A DNA stretch of 36,420 nucleotides from NCBI GenBank assembly GCA_002733715.2, contig NVWQ02000032.1, positions 1 through 36,420 of the forward strand, in the 5' to 3' direction. The notes under the pieces were generated by a model. It was not told where the DNA came from and ran no database searches. It was given only the letters and a program-made list of their open reading frames with translations. Positions 10,569 through 20,958 of the stretch are shown one piece after another (within the stretch, counting starts at the first letter, position 1; each line of letters opens with the position of its first letter). Source of the stretch: Methylophaga sp. GTDB lineage: Bacteria > Pseudomonadota > Gammaproteobacteria > Nitrosococcales > Methylophagaceae. The translations under genes were made by a program, and so were the position numbers.

Positions 10569-13554
10569 GCTTTCATTTTTAATTATTTATTTAGTATCCA
10601 CTCTCGGGATTGCCACGAATATTAAGGCAGATCCGATCAATGTAACTGAATCACCAGGAGGGATCAGAGATGTCATTCCAGCTGTTAGCACATGGTCACC
10701 GATCTATATTAATGATGGTGTCACTACGGCAGGTGATGGTCGTAACTGGTTAAGCCGCAACAATAATGTAAGTGGCAATACCTTTGAATTTACCTTAGAT
10801 CGTATTCAAGAAGGTGTCACGGGAGAGGCTGGTGACGCAAATGATATATACCAATTAGACTCGATTTCTCTTTATCTACCCGCTAGCAATCGTGCTTTAA
10901 AAGATTTCACGTTAGAAGCTAGAAATACCAGTGGCACATGGCAAAGACTTTATTCATCTCAAGCCGTCGAGGCTCCCTATAACTTTGCTAAAACAGTAGT
11001 AGGGGGAATTCGCTCTGTTATTCCAGCTGTTAGTAGCACATGGTCACCGATCTATATTAATGATGGTGTCACTACGGCAGGTGATGGTCGTAATTGGTTA
11101 AGCCGCAACAATAATGTAAGTGGCAATACCTTTGAGTTTACCTTCGACCCAAGTTTAAACGGCACCGCTGGTGAGATCGTTGACCAATTTACTTTAGACT
11201 CGATTTCTCTTTATCTGCCCGCTAGCAATCGTGCTTTAAAAGATTTTGAAATCACCGTCCAAACAACGGCAGGCTGGCAGGCTACTATACCGTTACAAGC
11301 CAGCAATATCAGTAGTCAACAAACCTTTAACATCGGGCCTTATAACAATGTATTGCGTGTAAAGCTAGAAACTATTTCTAATTATGGTGACAGCTATGTG
11401 CAAGTCAATGAACTGGCTATTAATGGCATTTGGGCAGGCGATAACCCTGTATTTAAGGCTACAAAAACGTCTGGAGAACAACTATTTAATTTAGCGGCGG
11501 CTACAGTCAATAATGATGGCCGTCGTGATAACCTAACAGATCTCAGATTTACAACCATTTCTAACTATGGTGATAGTTATGTACAAGTCAATGAACTGGC
11601 TATTAATGGCATTTGGCCAGGCGATAACCCTGTATTTAAGACTACAAAAACGTCTGGAGAACAAGCATTCGATTTAACAGCCACTACTATCAATAATGAC
11701 GGGCGCCGTGATGATATTGCTCGATTACGTTTGAGCACTATTTCTAATTATGGTGACAGCTATGTACAGATCAATGAATTCCAAGCTTTCGGTATTATTA
11801 ATCAACCGCTGGCAGGTAGGTTTAATGCTTTCGATACCGCTACAGCCGCAACGGCTATAACAGGCTCACTTCAAACTCGAGTTGCCAATAATGCCGCTAT
11901 AAGTTTTGATGTTATAGCGCTTAATACCGACAAATCAGCCGTAGACGCTAGCTTTTCAAAAGAAGTAAAAGTTGAGTTACTTGCTAATATGAATAGTGTC
12001 GCACTCAATACTGATAACTGCCCCGTTAGTTCTACTATAATATCCACACTACCAGCCACAACAATTGCTAATGGTCGTTCTACCGTTAGCATGCCAGCTG
12101 TTAATAATGTTTGGAAAGACATTGCTATTCGTATAACGTATCAACCGCCAACGGGAGCACTTATTACTACCTGCGCTATCGATAGATTTTCTATTCGCCC
12201 TGCTGCATTTACACTTGTAGCCCAGCATGATGATTGGGAAACGGCTGGAAATAGCCAAACGATTAATGCTTCAACAGCTAACGCTAACCCCACTCATAAG
12301 GCGGGACGCCCTTTTTCATTACTCTTAAAAGCGGTTGATTCAGCCGGCACAATTATGACCAATTATGCTGACATACCTATCTTAACAAACAGTTATCCTG
12401 CATTAGTTACCCCTGCCGGAGGCATATTAGGAGATTTTAACTTAGGTACATTGACTAATTCAAATGGGGTAATCAGTAGTGATACTACTCATTACTCAGA
12501 AGTCGGTGCTATTTCATTAAAAATTAGTGATGAAGATTTTGCTGGGGTTGATGCAGCAGATGGAACCTCGCTTATAAACCGTACTATTTCTTCACCAGAA
12601 ATAACCATCGGTCGATTCATTCCCGATCATTTCAAAGCCACTACTGTTAATAACGGTTCATTTGACAATGCCTGCAGTGGTTTCAGCTACGCTGGACAAC
12701 CTTTTACCTATCAATCTGTACCAGAATTAAAAATAACGGCTTATAATTCCAGCTCCGCTATCACTCATAACTATACTGGCAGCTTTGCTAAGTTAACTCC
12801 GTCTGACTTTTCAGTTATTACACCCACAAGTGATGCTATAGTTTTACAAGCTAATAACATTGATCTTATTAGCTTAAATTGGAATCCATCTGCACCGTCA
12901 TTAAATGATAATAATGATGGTAGCCTAAACTTTGTTTTTGGTGCTGATTCTTATAATCATTTACATATTCCGAATAGCTTAGTCGCACCTTTTGCGAATA
13001 CTGTTAATCTTAGTTTCACAGCTATTACCGACAGTGATGGCGTAACAACGCAGGCTCTCCCCCATATTTTGCAACCTTCTGGTGGTTCTGTACGTTTTGG
13101 ACGAGTTGCTATCAGCAATGCACATGGTAGCGAATTAGCGCCTCTGACGGTAAACATAAAAACAGAATATTTCAATGGCATTGACTGGACAGATAATACG
13201 GCCGATCAATGCACAACACTTGCATTGGCTGCTCAGTTTCAACTATCAAACCCTGAAACCGGCGGCGGTTGGGTGTCAGGCAATACAACCATGACCATTG
13301 CTAATGGGACAACAACCGGTACATTGACAAACAATAGCCCGGTGGCAAATGGGCGCACAGTATTATCACTTTCAGCCCCAGGCGAAGACAACCAAGGCTA
13401 CGTTAATATAAGAAGCCAAATTTCAGGCTCTGATAACTGGTTATTAGGTGATTATAATGGTAATGGCAGCTATGATAATGAAGCTTCTGCACGAGCCAGC
13501 TTTGGCTTATTTAAAGGCAGTGATACCATTATTTTCCGCCGCGAAGTTTATTGA
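10561..13554 (+). CDS. mshQ: MshQ-like large secreted protein (DUF6701 C-terminal region)
   Basis: The start is taken at ATG 10561. This gives a clean signal peptide (MTKLSFLIIYLVSTLGIA...KA, cut before DP), whereas the ATG at 10501 would not. The protein is 997 residues. The N-terminal third is made of repeated units: two copies of a beta domain containing WSPIYINDGVTTAGDGRNWL and two full copies plus a partial third of a 61-residue unit beginning TISNYGDSYVQ. The C-terminal 600 residues match the MshQ/DUF6701 type, including RPAAFTLVA, GRFIPDHF and a final IIFRREVY. In MSHA clusters this gene closes the operon, and the product is thought to be exported to the cell surface or pilus tip. Its 3' end overlaps convergent tmcA by 7 bases. 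Confidence 0.87.
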   Translation: MTKLSFLIIYLVSTLGIATNIKADPINVTESPGGIRDVIPAVSTWSPIYINDGVTTAGDGRNWLSRNNNVSGNTFEFTLDRIQEGVTGEAGDANDIYQLDSISLYLPASNRALKDFTLEARNTSGTWQRLYSSQAVEAPYNFAKTVVGGIRSVIPAVSSTWSPIYINDGVTTAGDGRNWLSRNNNVSGNTFEFTFDPSLNGTAGEIVDQFTLDSISLYLPASNRALKDFEITVQTTAGWQATIPLQASNISSQQTFNIGPYNNVLRVKLETISNYGDSYVQVNELAINGIWAGDNPVFKATKTSGEQLFNLAAATVNNDGRRDNLTDLRFTTISNYGDSYVQVNELAINGIWPGDNPVFKTTKTSGEQAFDLTATTINNDGRRDDIARLRLSTISNYGDSYVQINEFQAFGIINQPLAGRFNAFDTATAATAITGSLQTRVANNAAISFDVIALNTDKSAVDASFSKEVKVELLANMNSVALNTDNCPVSSTIISTLPATTIANGRSTVSMPAVNNVWKDIAIRITYQPPTGALITTCAIDRFSIRPAAFTLVAQHDDWETAGNSQTINASTANANPTHKAGRPFSLLLKAVDSAGTIMTNYADIPILTNSYPALVTPAGGILGDFNLGTLTNSNGVISSDTTHYSEVGAISLKISDEDFAGVDAADGTSLINRTISSPEITIGRFIPDHFKATTVNNGSFDNACSGFSYAGQPFTYQSVPELKITAYNSSSAITHNYTGSFAKLTPSDFSVITPTSDAIVLQANNIDLISLNWNPSAPSLNDNNDGSLNFVFGADSYNHLHIPNSLVAPFANTVNLSFTAITDSDGVTTQALPHILQPSGGSVRFGRVAISNAHGSELAPLTVNIKTEYFNGIDWTDNTADQCTTLALAAQFQLSNPETGGGWVSGNTTMTIANGTTTGTLTNNSPVANGRTVLSLSAPGEDNQGYVNIRSQISGSDNWLLGDYNGNGSYDNEASARASFGLFKGSDTIIFRREVY
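10658..11247 (+). repeat. Long direct duplication inside mshQ-like gene
   Basis: Two copies of about 245-250 bases (roughly 10658-10908 and 11002-11247) stay nearly identical at DNA level over long stretches, for example from ACATGGTCACCGATCTATAT onward and again in the segment starting GACTCGATTTCTCTTTATCT. Only scattered silent changes separate them in those stretches. The centres differ (copy 1 has extra residues after the DRIQEG segment). This indicates recent duplication or gene conversion. Confidence 0.85.
11371..11790 (+). repeat. 183-base (61-codon) tandem repeat in mshQ-like gene
   Basis: Units begin at 11371, 11554 and 11737 (period 183 bases), each starting ACYATTTCTAA. The first two are nearly identical over most of their length. 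The third is cut short after about 50 bases and runs into unique sequence. Each unit encodes a galactose-binding/jelly-roll-like strand set (TISNYGDSYVQVNELAINGI). The exact fold is not established here. Copy number may vary between strains. Confidence 0.85.
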
Positions 13555-15623
13555 TCTAATAAAATAGCAATAGCTTCACGCAACGCATTTTGTGCTTGGG
13601 ATTTTCCTGCAAACCCTAAGTTGCTAGCAATGTCGCCCCATGATAGGTGTTGTAAGATCGACTCTACACACAGAGCTTGCTGCTGCTGACTTAACTTTAA
13701 AAAATCAGCGCGACTGATTTGCTGATTTAGCCAATGCCATAATGTGACTTGGCTAAATTCATAGCCACGCTGACCATAAGTAAACGCCCTGATTTCTTGT
13801 TTATCATCATCTTTGAATTCTGTATTTGGCGCGCCGAGTAATTGAGATAATTGAACAACCTGCTCGGCTGCTAATTGATTAAACTGATACTGTAATAAAT
13901 GCGGCCAGTGTTGCTGAAAACGGTGTTTAGCTGCATTTACAACTATCACTCCCTCGGCTGAAATTGCCTGCAACATCATCACTGAATGACTACCACTAAC
14001 CTCATCACGGTGTATGCCTAAGCGCACAAATTCAAATGCTGATTTATCCCAAAATGAAATTAAATTATCTGTCATCGCAAAGCTAGATCCGATTATATCG
14101 AAATCATGTTCAGCTGCTTGTTTTGCACAATAATTTAATAATGCTTTACCAATATTGCGTTGCTGAACAGCAGGGTGGACGGCAGCACGCACTACACGCT
14201 GATAATGTAATGATCCCGCTGACAAAATACCCGCATGAGCCAATAAAGATTGCGGTAACAGATGACCTTTTAAGCGGCGTTTACCTTCATATACGGCTTG
14301 CGAAAGTTCAGGATCTAATTTTCCTTCGTTCACCAGCCATGCACTCGCGATAATATGACCACAATAACGAACAACCATGACTGTAATATCATCACGATCA
14401 AGCAGCATTTGTAAATCCGATGGGCGTGTTCGATAATGTGCCAACACCATTAATCCAAATAGTTGGCTAAGACTTTGCTCATCTTCAATTAATTGTTTTT
14501 TATCTAACAATTCGATCTGACATTGTTCAATTTCAGCATCGGCAATTAACTCATCGGCAACAGGCACAGCATTCAACAATAATGACTGAAAGCTAAACGC
14601 TTCTAGCATGTCATCATCCGCCCAACGAATAGGTGTTGCCATTCGGTAGCTATGCCAACCAGGTGTTTTTTTGTCGAGTATTTTTTGAAAGCGAACTGCA
14701 AAGCCGCGCCCGGTGCCTTCATAACCATGCAAGGTAGTAGCAAAAACAAGTCGCGAATATTTCTGTAATAATCTTTCCAACATGGATGCAGGAATAGCCG
14801 CCGCTTCATCCACCAGCACAAGATCGGCTTTAAGCTCTGATTCGATTAATGCATCAGGTGCAATAAAGCGCAGTTCGGCACCATTAAATGTGAGTAATCC
14901 CGCTGAGTAATTCGCCTCTGTGAGTAATCGACTTGCATGCTCAAATACCGTATCGGCAATGGCCAGACTCGGCGCGGTAACTAAAATGGTTTTTTTGCCT
15001 TCGACTAATAATTGAGCCGCAGCAATACCTAATGATGCAGATTTGCCCCTGCCTCGGTCAGCAGATAATACCAATGGCCGCCGTCTGTGACCATGAACAA
15101 CTCTTTTGACTGCTTCAACAGCCTTTTGCTGATCCTGCGTTAGATACAAATCAATGGGGTCAGACTCGATTGATTTATTTACACATTCAACCTCATTGCT
15201 TGAAATCAATCGAGTCTGACCCCATTGATTCAGTTGAGGTAAAACCCGCCCTTGCTGAACAATAGTAAAATTAGAACTTTGCTCATCAAATTCTTTTAGA
15301 ACACGTTTAAAACGCTGAATCCACAAACTGTTTTGGCTATTCTCTAGCCATATAATCAGCACACCTCCTTGTTTTATCGTACCAATAATGGCGCCTAAAC
15401 TATCAGGATTAAAATCGACCAAAGCATCAAATATTACCGCATCAAATTCTTTACCTAAGTATTGCTGCGCTTGTTTTTGGGAGATGGTTACATAATCAGC
15501 TGTCGGTTGATTAGATAAAGCAATGATATTGGCAGTATTAAACTGTTCCAACAATAATGCCGATGATATTTCACACCAGCCCTGTTCGCCTTGTAGAATG
15601 ACACATTGTCGTTGTTGTTGCAT
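13548..15623 (-). CDS. tmcA: tRNA(Met) cytidine acetyltransferase TmcA
   Basis: The enzyme makes N4-acetylcytidine at the wobble base of elongator tRNA-Met using acetyl-CoA and ATP. It has 691 residues, slightly longer than the roughly 670 of E. coli. Domains in order: an N-terminal DUF1726-type region (about 1-125), a RecD-like helicase domain with Walker A SADRGRGKSA (187-196) and Walker B-type LVDEAAAIP, a GNAT domain with RVVRAAVHPAVQQRNIGKAL, and a C-terminal tRNA-binding region. Residues about 132-158, in the linker before the helicase domain, are encoded by a perfect palindromic DNA element inserted in frame. This probably explains the extra length. It ends 7 bases inside the 3' end of the mshQ-like gene. 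Confidence 0.94.
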   Translation of the reverse strand: MQQQRQCVILQGEQGWCEISSALLLEQFNTANIIALSNQPTADYVTISQKQAQQYLGKEFDAVIFDALVDFNPDSLGAIIGTIKQGGVLIIWLENSQNSLWIQRFKRVLKEFDEQSSNFTIVQQGRVLPQLNQWGQTRLISSNEVECVNKSIESDPIDLYLTQDQQKAVEAVKRVVHGHRRRPLVLSADRGRGKSASLGIAAAQLLVEGKKTILVTAPSLAIADTVFEHASRLLTEANYSAGLLTFNGAELRFIAPDALIESELKADLVLVDEAAAIPASMLERLLQKYSRLVFATTLHGYEGTGRGFAVRFQKILDKKTPGWHSYRMATPIRWADDDMLEAFSFQSLLLNAVPVADELIADAEIEQCQIELLDKKQLIEDEQSLSQLFGLMVLAHYRTRPSDLQMLLDRDDITVMVVRYCGHIIASAWLVNEGKLDPELSQAVYEGKRRLKGHLLPQSLLAHAGILSAGSLHYQRVVRAAVHPAVQQRNIGKALLNYCAKQAAEHDFDIIGSSFAMTDNLISFWDKSAFEFVRLGIHRDEVSGSHSVMMLQAISAEGVIVVNAAKHRFQQHWPHLLQYQFNQLAAEQVVQLSQLLGAPNTEFKDDDKQEIRAFTYGQRGYEFSQVTLWHWLNQQISRADFLKLSQQQQALCVESILQHLSWGDIASNLGFAGKSQAQNALREAIAILLDQ
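15149..15230. repeat. Perfect 28-bp-arm inverted repeat inside tmcA
   Basis: Arms 15149-15176 and 15203-15230 are exact reverse complements, centred on a 26-base spacer. Each arm holds GGGGTCAGACTCGATTGATT or its complement. The element is read through in frame as linker residues of TmcA. The form recalls REP/RAYT-type or other non-autonomous palindromes of Gammaproteobacteria. Its family is inferred from appearance only. Confidence 0.92.
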
Positions 15624-15645: not shown

Positions 15646-15788
15646 CGTCACTCCGGTATGTTTTAAGCCGGGGTCTTATTTGTGCGGAGATCCCGGCTAA
15701 AAGCATACCGGGATGAGAAGGTTTTTTTTTGAAAATTGAAGTATCACGGGTATATATTTCGGCTAAAAGACTACCGAAACGAAGTAAC
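15646..15788. repeat. Dispersed GTCATCC-type palindrome, copy A, with degenerate neighbour
   Basis: Between slyX and tmcA, bases about 15646-15716 form an imperfect long palindrome. CTCCGGTATGTTTTAAGCCGG on the left pairs with CCGGCTAAAAGCATACCGGG on the right. A worn partial copy follows at about 15747-15788 (TTTCGGCTAAAAGACTACCG). It belongs with copies at 28133, 32407 and 33723. No gene is supported in the 198-base gap. Confidence 0.75.
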
Positions 15789-20086: not shown

Positions 20087-20779
20087 ATGAAAAAATATTT
20101 AATTCTATTGGGCTTATTCACTAGCCTAAGTGCCAATGCAGCCCTACTTAAAAGTTATGACTTTGATGGTGGCCTAACGGATACGCTTAGCAATGGCAGT
20201 GATTTAATTGCATCAGGAGGAACCGTTACTGGCGGCCGTTATGATTTCACTGATAACCAAGGCTTGAAACTTACATCAGCATTAGCGAATACTAGTGATT
20301 ATGCCATCGAAATTAAAATGCAAGTTAATGATAGTGTCGGTGGTTTTAATAAAGTTATCGACTTTAGTGAACTTGCCTCCGATACTGGATTATACATTTT
20401 AAGTGGCAAACTAAATTTCTTCGGCGCAGGTGGAAATGTAGGTTCTCTCACTCTTAACACAGACTTTACTGTTGGATTAGCACGCTCGGGAGGTAATCTA
20501 GAACTGTTTCTAAATGGCACTTCTCTTTGGAGTGGCGCTGATTCTACAGGACACGGTATTTCAGCCTCAAACATCTTAAACTTTTTTGAAGATGATAATG
20601 CTACAAACCAAAATGAATCATTTGCAGGCTCTGTAGACTTTATTCGTATTCATGATGATGCCTCTACTTTTGGTAGTGTGATTGCACCTCCTAATGCTGT
20701 ACCCGTTCCCGCGGCACTCTTTATGTTTGCACCGGCATTATTAGGTTTTTTAGGTTTGCGTCGTAAAACACAGGCATAA
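20087..20779 (+). CDS. Exported LamG-like protein with VPxPA / PEP-CTERM-type sorting tail
   Basis: The protein is 230 residues. The signal peptide (MKKYLILLGLFTSLSANA, cut before ALL) is followed by a domain of about 180 residues that reads like a concanavalin/LamG-type beta sandwich. Supporting segments are SYDFDGGLTDTLSNG, the YAIEIKMQV strand, LELFLNGTSLWSG and GSVDFIRIHDDA. Then come a short linker and the tail VPVPAALFMFAPALLGFLG with LRRK, almost the same as the protein at 212-775. LamG-type folds often bind carbohydrate, so a matrix or surface glycan role is plausible but inferred. AAGGAA SD 6 bases before ATG. A c-di-GMP riboswitch fills the leader. Confidence 0.88.
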   Translation: MKKYLILLGLFTSLSANAALLKSYDFDGGLTDTLSNGSDLIASGGTVTGGRYDFTDNQGLKLTSALANTSDYAIEIKMQVNDSVGGFNKVIDFSELASDTGLYILSGKLNFFGAGGNVGSLTLNTDFTVGLARSGGNLELFLNGTSLWSGADSTGHGISASNILNFFEDDNATNQNESFAGSVDFIRIHDDASTFGSVIAPPNAVPVPAALFMFAPALLGFLGLRRKTQA

Positions 20780-20789
20780 ATAAATTTAA

Positions 20790-20945
20790 GGAACCTCTGA
20801 TTAAATCGGTTAGAATTAGGCGCAGAAAAAAGTGTCGCTATTTTCCACGAAATGAGTGGTAATAGTCACTCTATTGCTACGAACTTCGTGGAAAATATCG
20901 GCGCTTTTAGCAAGCCTAAAATAATTGGACTTGATCAGAGGTTCC
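20790..20945. mobile_element. MITE with TTAA target duplications
   Basis: A 156-bp non-coding element has 15-bp terminal inverted repeats starting GGAACCTCTGAT (one mismatch). It is flanked on both sides by TTAA (20786-20789 and 20946-20949), a 4-base target-site duplication. The whole element is one long imperfect hairpin: TATTTTCCACGAA near 20838-20851 recurs inverted near 20885-20897. It lies between the stop of the VPxPA gene and that gene's terminator. The ends recall IS5-type termini, by memory only. Confidence 0.85.
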
Positions 20946-20958
20946 TTAATACTTAGTT

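Follow-up and report, generated by a model that had tools for sequence, protein, structure and literature searches.

The window, by which is meant the whole stretch of 36,420 nucleotides of a Methylophaga sp. contig that was analysed, carries an intact tmcA gene with a perfect inverted repeat inside its coding sequence. The arms, each of 28 nt, are 100% complementary and stand on either side of a 26-nt spacer, giving a palindrome of 82 nt in all. The genome in which it lies (G000 below; other genomes carry G, contigs C and loci L numbers) is a 2.83-Mb draft of 80 contigs. The features concerned are:

13548..15623, minus strand: tmcA, tRNA(Met) cytidine acetyltransferase, 691 aa, intact (ORF and Pfam)
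15149..15176, plus strand: first arm, a TIR/REP-like unit AATCAAT-GGGGTCAGACTCG-ATTGATT plus T (inverted-repeat comparison, DNA fold)
15177..15202, no strand: spacer, 26 nt, between the arms (spacer comparison)
15203..15230, minus strand: second arm, exact reverse complement of the first (inverted-repeat comparison)
15151..15228, no strand: probable core of the inserted element, TCAATGGGG...CCCCATTGA, 78 nt (flank comparison and core length)

A first-pass annotation made from the letters had described arms of 28 bases and a spacer of 26, and both were recovered exactly, the arms at 15149-15176 and 15203-15230. On the 691-aa ORF, Pfam places TmcA_N at residues 42-106, the helicase domain (NAT10_TcmA_helicase) at 185-351 and the acetyltransferase domain (GNAT_acetyltr_2) at 387-497. 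The palindrome is translated without a stop as residues 132-159 (NQWGQTRLISSNEVECVNKSIESDPIDL), and since these fall between TmcA_N and the helicase domain, the annotation was right to place it, in frame, in an interdomain linker. When the window was shuffled twelve times with its dinucleotides kept, the longest perfect arms were 10-12 nt, against the 28 observed. At the palindrome the tmcA mRNA is predicted to fold, as had been suggested, into an RNA hairpin of -49.9 kcal/mol (z -9.6), which is strong enough that an effect on translation is possible. In E. coli tmcA is dispensable; between G000 and its nearest relative, G017, a dN of 0.125 and a dS of 0.646 outside the linker indicate that the gene is under purifying selection.

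The arm belongs to a dispersed repeat family, as the annotation had supposed when it proposed a search of the genome. A 20-mer (GGGGTCAGACTCGATTGATT) occurs at ten places in G000 with up to three mismatches, the window's two arms included, and at none in the reversed control. Two further full inverted pairs are present, one at the 3' end of tatB and one between cysD and cysN (names read from translations, not from a family search). The tatB pair has one mismatch in 29 and is read in frame as SMGSDSID...SIESDPIE, the cysD-cysN pair lies outside both genes, and single arm matches fall on contigs C72, C4, C15 and C77, the last at three mismatches; copies of the arm in this genome are few. A search of G000 with a 17-mer at up to three mismatches returned 17 matches against five in the reversed control, and its weaker matches were therefore not used. 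With no more than one mismatch, the 20-mer was found in 23 of 143 genomes, G000 among them, and its reversed control matched in none. On a wider scale, a search for paired 12-mers in a GTDB-based collection of 84,980 species' genomes yielded 94 stretches; the 80 loci listed from these hold 82 palindromes. The records are mostly proteobacterial, with single ones titled Gemmatimonas, Gemmatimonadaceae, Nitrospirae, Nitrospinota and Saprospiraceae, and as many are MAGs some may reflect binning errors. This exact pattern overlooks copies with a mismatch or a long spacer: it found pairs in two of 57 genomes, though tmcA of G008, tatB of G000 and contig C53 of G023 also bear them.

Each arm alone is predicted to form a stem-loop, with a 7-bp stem and four inner pairs, that folds as single-stranded DNA at -4.7 kcal/mol (z -3.55). 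In a set of 115 distinct arms whose core is exact, the two halves of the stem are complementary at 4.67 of 7 positions on average, compared with a mean of 4.00 and a maximum of 4.31 in 2000 re-dealings of the stem partners, a comparison uncorrected for the relatedness of the arms; stem position 4 alternates between C-G (62 arms) and A-T (40 arms). By reading, the arm is open in two of three frames per strand, which is about chance level, and for that reason we do not claim that it evolved for coding. Outside TCAATGGGG, 75 distinct flanks look random beyond about 3 nt, which places the edge of the element at TCAATGGGG; the flank position -1 is A or T in 72 of them. Thirty-two elements fitting the strict TCAATGGGG...CCCCATTGA pattern showed no excess of direct repeats between their flanks: the mean longest direct match was 1.03, against 1.29 in re-dealt pairs, and a match of at least 4 was observed in two elements where 1.8 were expected. 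Insertion thus left no target-site duplication at the ends of these 32 elements, which in this respect differ from a classical MITE of a DDE transposon. HUH-Y1 enzymes are expected to leave no direct repeats at the ends of an element.

The arm motif GGGGTCAG, present in both arms, fits GGGGWSAS, and in relatives the arm borders HUH/Y1 transposase genes that share one sequence type (HAYVLMTNHVHLL...YIELNPVRA, with close variants). The Y1 ORF has inverted arms on both sides in G142 (L129) and G059 (L130), where an arm 15-mer starts 6 nt before the low end of the ORF and, on the other side, 17 and 64 nt past its high end. In G075 and G007 one side has an arm with 0-1 mismatches and the second side one with two, and in G013 and G001 an arm stands at one side only. 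Among 25 distinct Y1 ORFs chosen by motif (30 rows, with five genes appearing twice), only eight have the 15-mer within 500 nt at up to two mismatches, namely those of the six genomes just mentioned, that of G073, where the match has two mismatches and the ORF is short, and L124 of G017, where the arm is upstream only and the transposase is of another sequence type. Many of the remaining ORFs are accompanied by other GGGGWSAS repeats, and some by none. HUH and Tyr motifs, together with a Pfam Y1_Tnp match above its cut-off, were present in all six arm-flanked transposases checked, and none of the six had a Pfam HTH match at E up to 0.1; the best NCBIfam match of L130 and L129 was 'REP-associated tyrosine transposase', at 70 and 73 bits, below the cut-off of 80.

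An intact cognate transposase was not found in the 80-contig assembly of G000. Its sole Y1_Tnp match, at the end of contig C19, comes with a different repeat, GGGGACAG, and was rejected as the cognate enzyme, the repeat upstream of it being GGGGACAGACC and not the tmcA arm. At the end of contig C15 (L023), 45 aa of a cognate-type Y1 transposase are left as a remnant; an arm lies upstream of it, and a gene read as pyrG adjoins it. Elsewhere, in G017, G007 and G075 (L124, L126, L131), an arm and a Y1 transposase gene lie directly downstream of a type IV pilin-like ORF. In three places (L012 at 60-150, L014 near its end, L125 at 3643) the arm and a second GGGG motif together form a compound end, TTTCGTGGGGATnnnTCAGGGTCAGACTCGATT; these places are in G000, close to two contig edges, and in G001.

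Palindromes in coding frames are not peculiar to tmcA. Forty-five of the 82 lie inside a stop-to-stop frame of at least 60 aa and 32 inside one of at least 100 aa, counts in which spurious frames are included. Forty spanning frames reach 100 aa or more, and Pfam was run on 30 of them, covering 29 of these 32 palindromes (L179, L188 and L195 left out), and ten of the 30 frames had a match at E up to 0.001, those of L140 and L214 being below Pfam's own cut-off. Domains lie on both sides of the palindrome in L150, a P-type ATPase; in L153, an error-prone DNA polymerase (NCBIfam 1327 bits against a cut-off of 939); in L163, the transporter ArsJ (NCBIfam 586 bits against 400); and in L160, a sigma-54 regulator with a FleQ domain, where it sits between the AAA lid and the HTH; for this FleQ-like regulator no NCBIfam model exceeded its cut-off among the 25 matches listed. 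A domain was found on one side only in L140, L157, L173, L207 and L214, and HisI of G023 (L189) matches Pfam PRA-CH, an assignment supported by orthologues. Several long spanning ORFs (L149, L155, L156, L174 and L183 among them) had no Pfam match and are possibly spurious. Among the in-frame copies read, the two arms are translated in four different combinations of frames, so that no single peptide is favoured. REPs have been reported in DnaE2 genes (PMC3733652), and together with the in-frame TIR dimer of L153 they may hint at a shared preference.

Whether sister strains have an empty linker, a comparison that the first-pass annotation had recommended, could be answered from 30 tmcA loci (a match having turned up in 42 of the 59 genomes searched), the linker being measured between an LPxL-like motif and a DQQ motif. 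Only G000 and G008 carry the palindrome; the other 28 are without the insert, and the opposite case, in which relatives share the same linker residues in non-palindromic DNA, does not hold. The linker is 30 aa long in G000 and 36 aa in G008, 14 aa in ten relatives (G017, G023, G005, G015, G025, G014, G020, G007, G021 and G001) and 11-15 aa in another three; automatic measurement misfired in three rows and failed in twelve, in which the alignment shows no insert. Relative to G017, the linker of G000 has a net gain of 48 nt for a palindrome of 82 nt, so this was not a clean insertion, and about 30 nt of the old linker would have been lost at or after it. In hisI of G023, set against the proteins of 14 relatives and counted by hand, a clean gain of 30 codons is suggested.

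As the linker of G017 is empty, the tmcA insertion is younger than the split of G000 and G017, unless it was lost in the latter. The annotation had called the insertion recent: the empty linker of this sister species bears that out only in part, and the near-perfect arms, taken alone, are no clock. The tatB copy illustrates the point: G017 shares it, but in G000 its two arms are still identical at all positions except one, which makes arm identity a poor measure of age. This element is present in three of 25 tatB genes, decaying in G017 and more so in G023. In G013, which falls beside G023, it cannot be recognised.

The best explanation, to which we give a probability of about 0.87, is that the tmcA palindrome is a non-autonomous, REPIN/MITE-like TIR dimer that moved into the tmcA linker in frame. 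Such an element would be built from the terminal repeat of a RAYT/TIRYT-like (HUH-Y1) transposase gene, present in two inverted copies with a short spacer. Everything beyond the linkage of arm and transposase we infer: a Y1 transposase of the arm-linked group may act in trans on single-stranded hairpins of the arm and so move the short dimer, by analogy with the TnpAREP of E. coli, which cleaves and rejoins REP sequences and belongs to a superfamily that processes single-stranded DNA (PMC6006769). One such dimer would then have landed in frame in the interdomain linker of tmcA in a Methylophaga genome, where it would be tolerated because it adds about 16 residues to the linker and leaves both flanking domains intact; the linker is probably flexible and TmcA presumably still works. 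Most copies that land in genes would be lost, and those in frame in linkers and tails would survive.

An older origin, in which the insert was ancestral to the clade holding G008 and G000 and was cleanly lost in G017 and in the G023/G013 line, would account for the fact that both inserts occupy the same linker in the same two frames (NQWG.TRLI, SIESDPID) at positions differing by only 2-4 residues. Some weak similarity of their spacers, equalled by 45 of 1000 shuffles, points the same way. A quick tree of TmcA, with SH-aLRT support and the linker columns left out, groups G000 with G017 (99), joins G023 and G013 to them next (100), and then G008 (81), so that the placement of G008 beside the G000 group has 81% support only; the same quick tree rejects a clade of G000 and G008 (AU p 8.9e-11), and on it an ancestral insert costs three changes against two. 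Since the tree parts the two carriers, two separate insertions are more parsimonious. Furthermore, the linkers of G017 and G023 are of the length found in eight further relatives measured, and the spacer of G008 matches that of hisI in G023 (at 15 of 16 nt, equalled by none of 1000 shuffles) rather than that of G000. Of the 15 spacer pairs compared, uncorrected for multiple pairs and with a few arm bases included, two are clearly similar, namely the G008 and hisI pair just mentioned and, within G000, tatB with cysD-cysN (equalled by 10 of 1000 shuffles), and most are not. The tmcA spacer of G000 has no significant similarity to the tatB or the cysD-cysN spacer of the same genome. One shared insertion is therefore disfavoured by spacers and tree and appears unlikely, and two separate insertions in one tmcA linker are, as far as sequence comparison can tell, the better and more parsimonious reading. 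Different REPs at about the same recB site have been described in two Xanthomonas species (PMC3733652).

The in-frame TIR dimer might also be kept for the benefit of its host, through slowed translation between domains, control of the tmcA mRNA or a useful linker peptide, and both the predicted RNA hairpin and the presence of palindromes in two tmcA linkers of one genus would suit such a role. It is distinctly improbable, however, given that 28 of 30 tmcA genes manage without the insert, that the same arms occur in unrelated genes and at intergenic sites, that the four frame combinations favour no peptide and that the tatB copy is falling into decay in G017 and further in G023; apart from the predicted hairpin, no evidence of a selected host function was found. 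Inverted chimeras are a known artefact, and the genome is a draft, but a chimeric inverted read from assembly or amplification is hardly credible when several independent genomes and genes have the same arms, with differing spacers and open frames, when arm-flanked transposase genes exist and when the tatB copy is common to G017 and, in decayed form, G023. A palindrome arising as a chance outcome of codon choice is ruled out by the shuffles and by the repeat family in this and other genomes.

Much of what surrounds the reading as an inserted TIR dimer is already described, namely TIRtrons, GGGGWSAS repeats, TIR dimers, in-frame GTAG and CGTC REPs and the Rickettsia elements (PMC3733652, PMC6006769, PMC10969869, in the passages used here). 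In TIRtrons (Di Nocera et al. 2013, PMC3733652), long terminal inverted repeats (TIRs) marked by GGGGWSAS surround the gene of a Y1/HUH enzyme, the TIR-associated tyrosine transposase (TIRYT), and TIRs also occur as dimers scattered apart from that gene; here too the motif (as GGGGTCAG) is in both arms, inverted copies surround a Y1 HUH gene in relatives, and dimers are dispersed. TIRYT has been proposed to equal TnpAREP subclass 2.1 (PMC6006769), for which a C-terminal helix-turn-helix domain would be expected. The intragenic units in Table 1 of PMC3733652 are GTAG and CGTC repeats and not TIRs, whereas in the present case several genes carry TIR dimers in frame. Each TIR is in addition a weak stem-loop on its own, and that paper notes self-complementary TIRs in some species. 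REPINs (Bertels and Rainey 2011, PMC3116915) are likewise RAYT-linked repeats paired in inverted orientation around a variable spacer and predicted to form one long hairpin, but they are extragenic in the passages compared, and the element here is intragenic, in frame and of few copies in G000. By reading, the arm contains no GTAG or GTGG, the foot of GTAG REPs and REPINs, and the CGTC tag (or its TGTC or CCTC variants) is absent at the arm ends.

Rickettsia palindromic elements (Ogata et al. 2000, 2002; via PMC10969869 and PMC3733652) are likewise in-frame palindromes in unrelated protein genes. They are described as about 150 bp long (PMC10969869) or as CGTC-tagged without a dedicated transposase (PMC3733652, which places RPE-4 and RPE-6 among the CGTC repeats), and these descriptions set them apart from an element that is GGGG-tagged and linked to Y1 transposase genes. 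In-frame REPs inside tnpAREP genes of subclass 2.4 (PMC6006769) share with the tmcA case the frame-keeping insertion of a palindrome in a peripheral protein region, but, as described there, involve another transposase subclass and another host gene. No report of in-frame GGGGWSAS TIR dimers was found in the literature searched, the supplementary intragenic-repeat list of PMC3733652 lying outside that search, and a query with the letters of the arm gave no title on bacterial repeats among the matches listed. An in-frame coding palindrome is here tied to a transposase family, a link that the passages of PMC3733652 used here call missing for CGTC repeats, and the TmcA proteins of G000 and G017 form a natural pair, with and without, for asking if such inserts are neutral. 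The odds are about even, in our judgement, that GGGGWSAS TIR dimers are a second widespread class of coding palindromes next to GTAG/CGTC REPs and the Rickettsia elements, moved by a TIRYT-type transposase across several phyla and repeatedly entering interdomain linkers and tails in frame, with the tmcA linker of Methylophaga as a recurrent site.

The window holds other repeats as well. Just upstream of tmcA, at 15692-15716, lies a second dispersed repeat with self-complementary ends (CCCGGCTAAAAGCATACCGGGATGA), which has 29 places in G000 at up to three mismatches and none in the reversed control. At 20786-20949, just after an ORF ending at 20779, nested inverted repeats (outer arms of 22 nt, 120 nt apart and 91% complementary; inner arms of 38 nt, 5 nt apart and 79% complementary) look like another small hairpin element.
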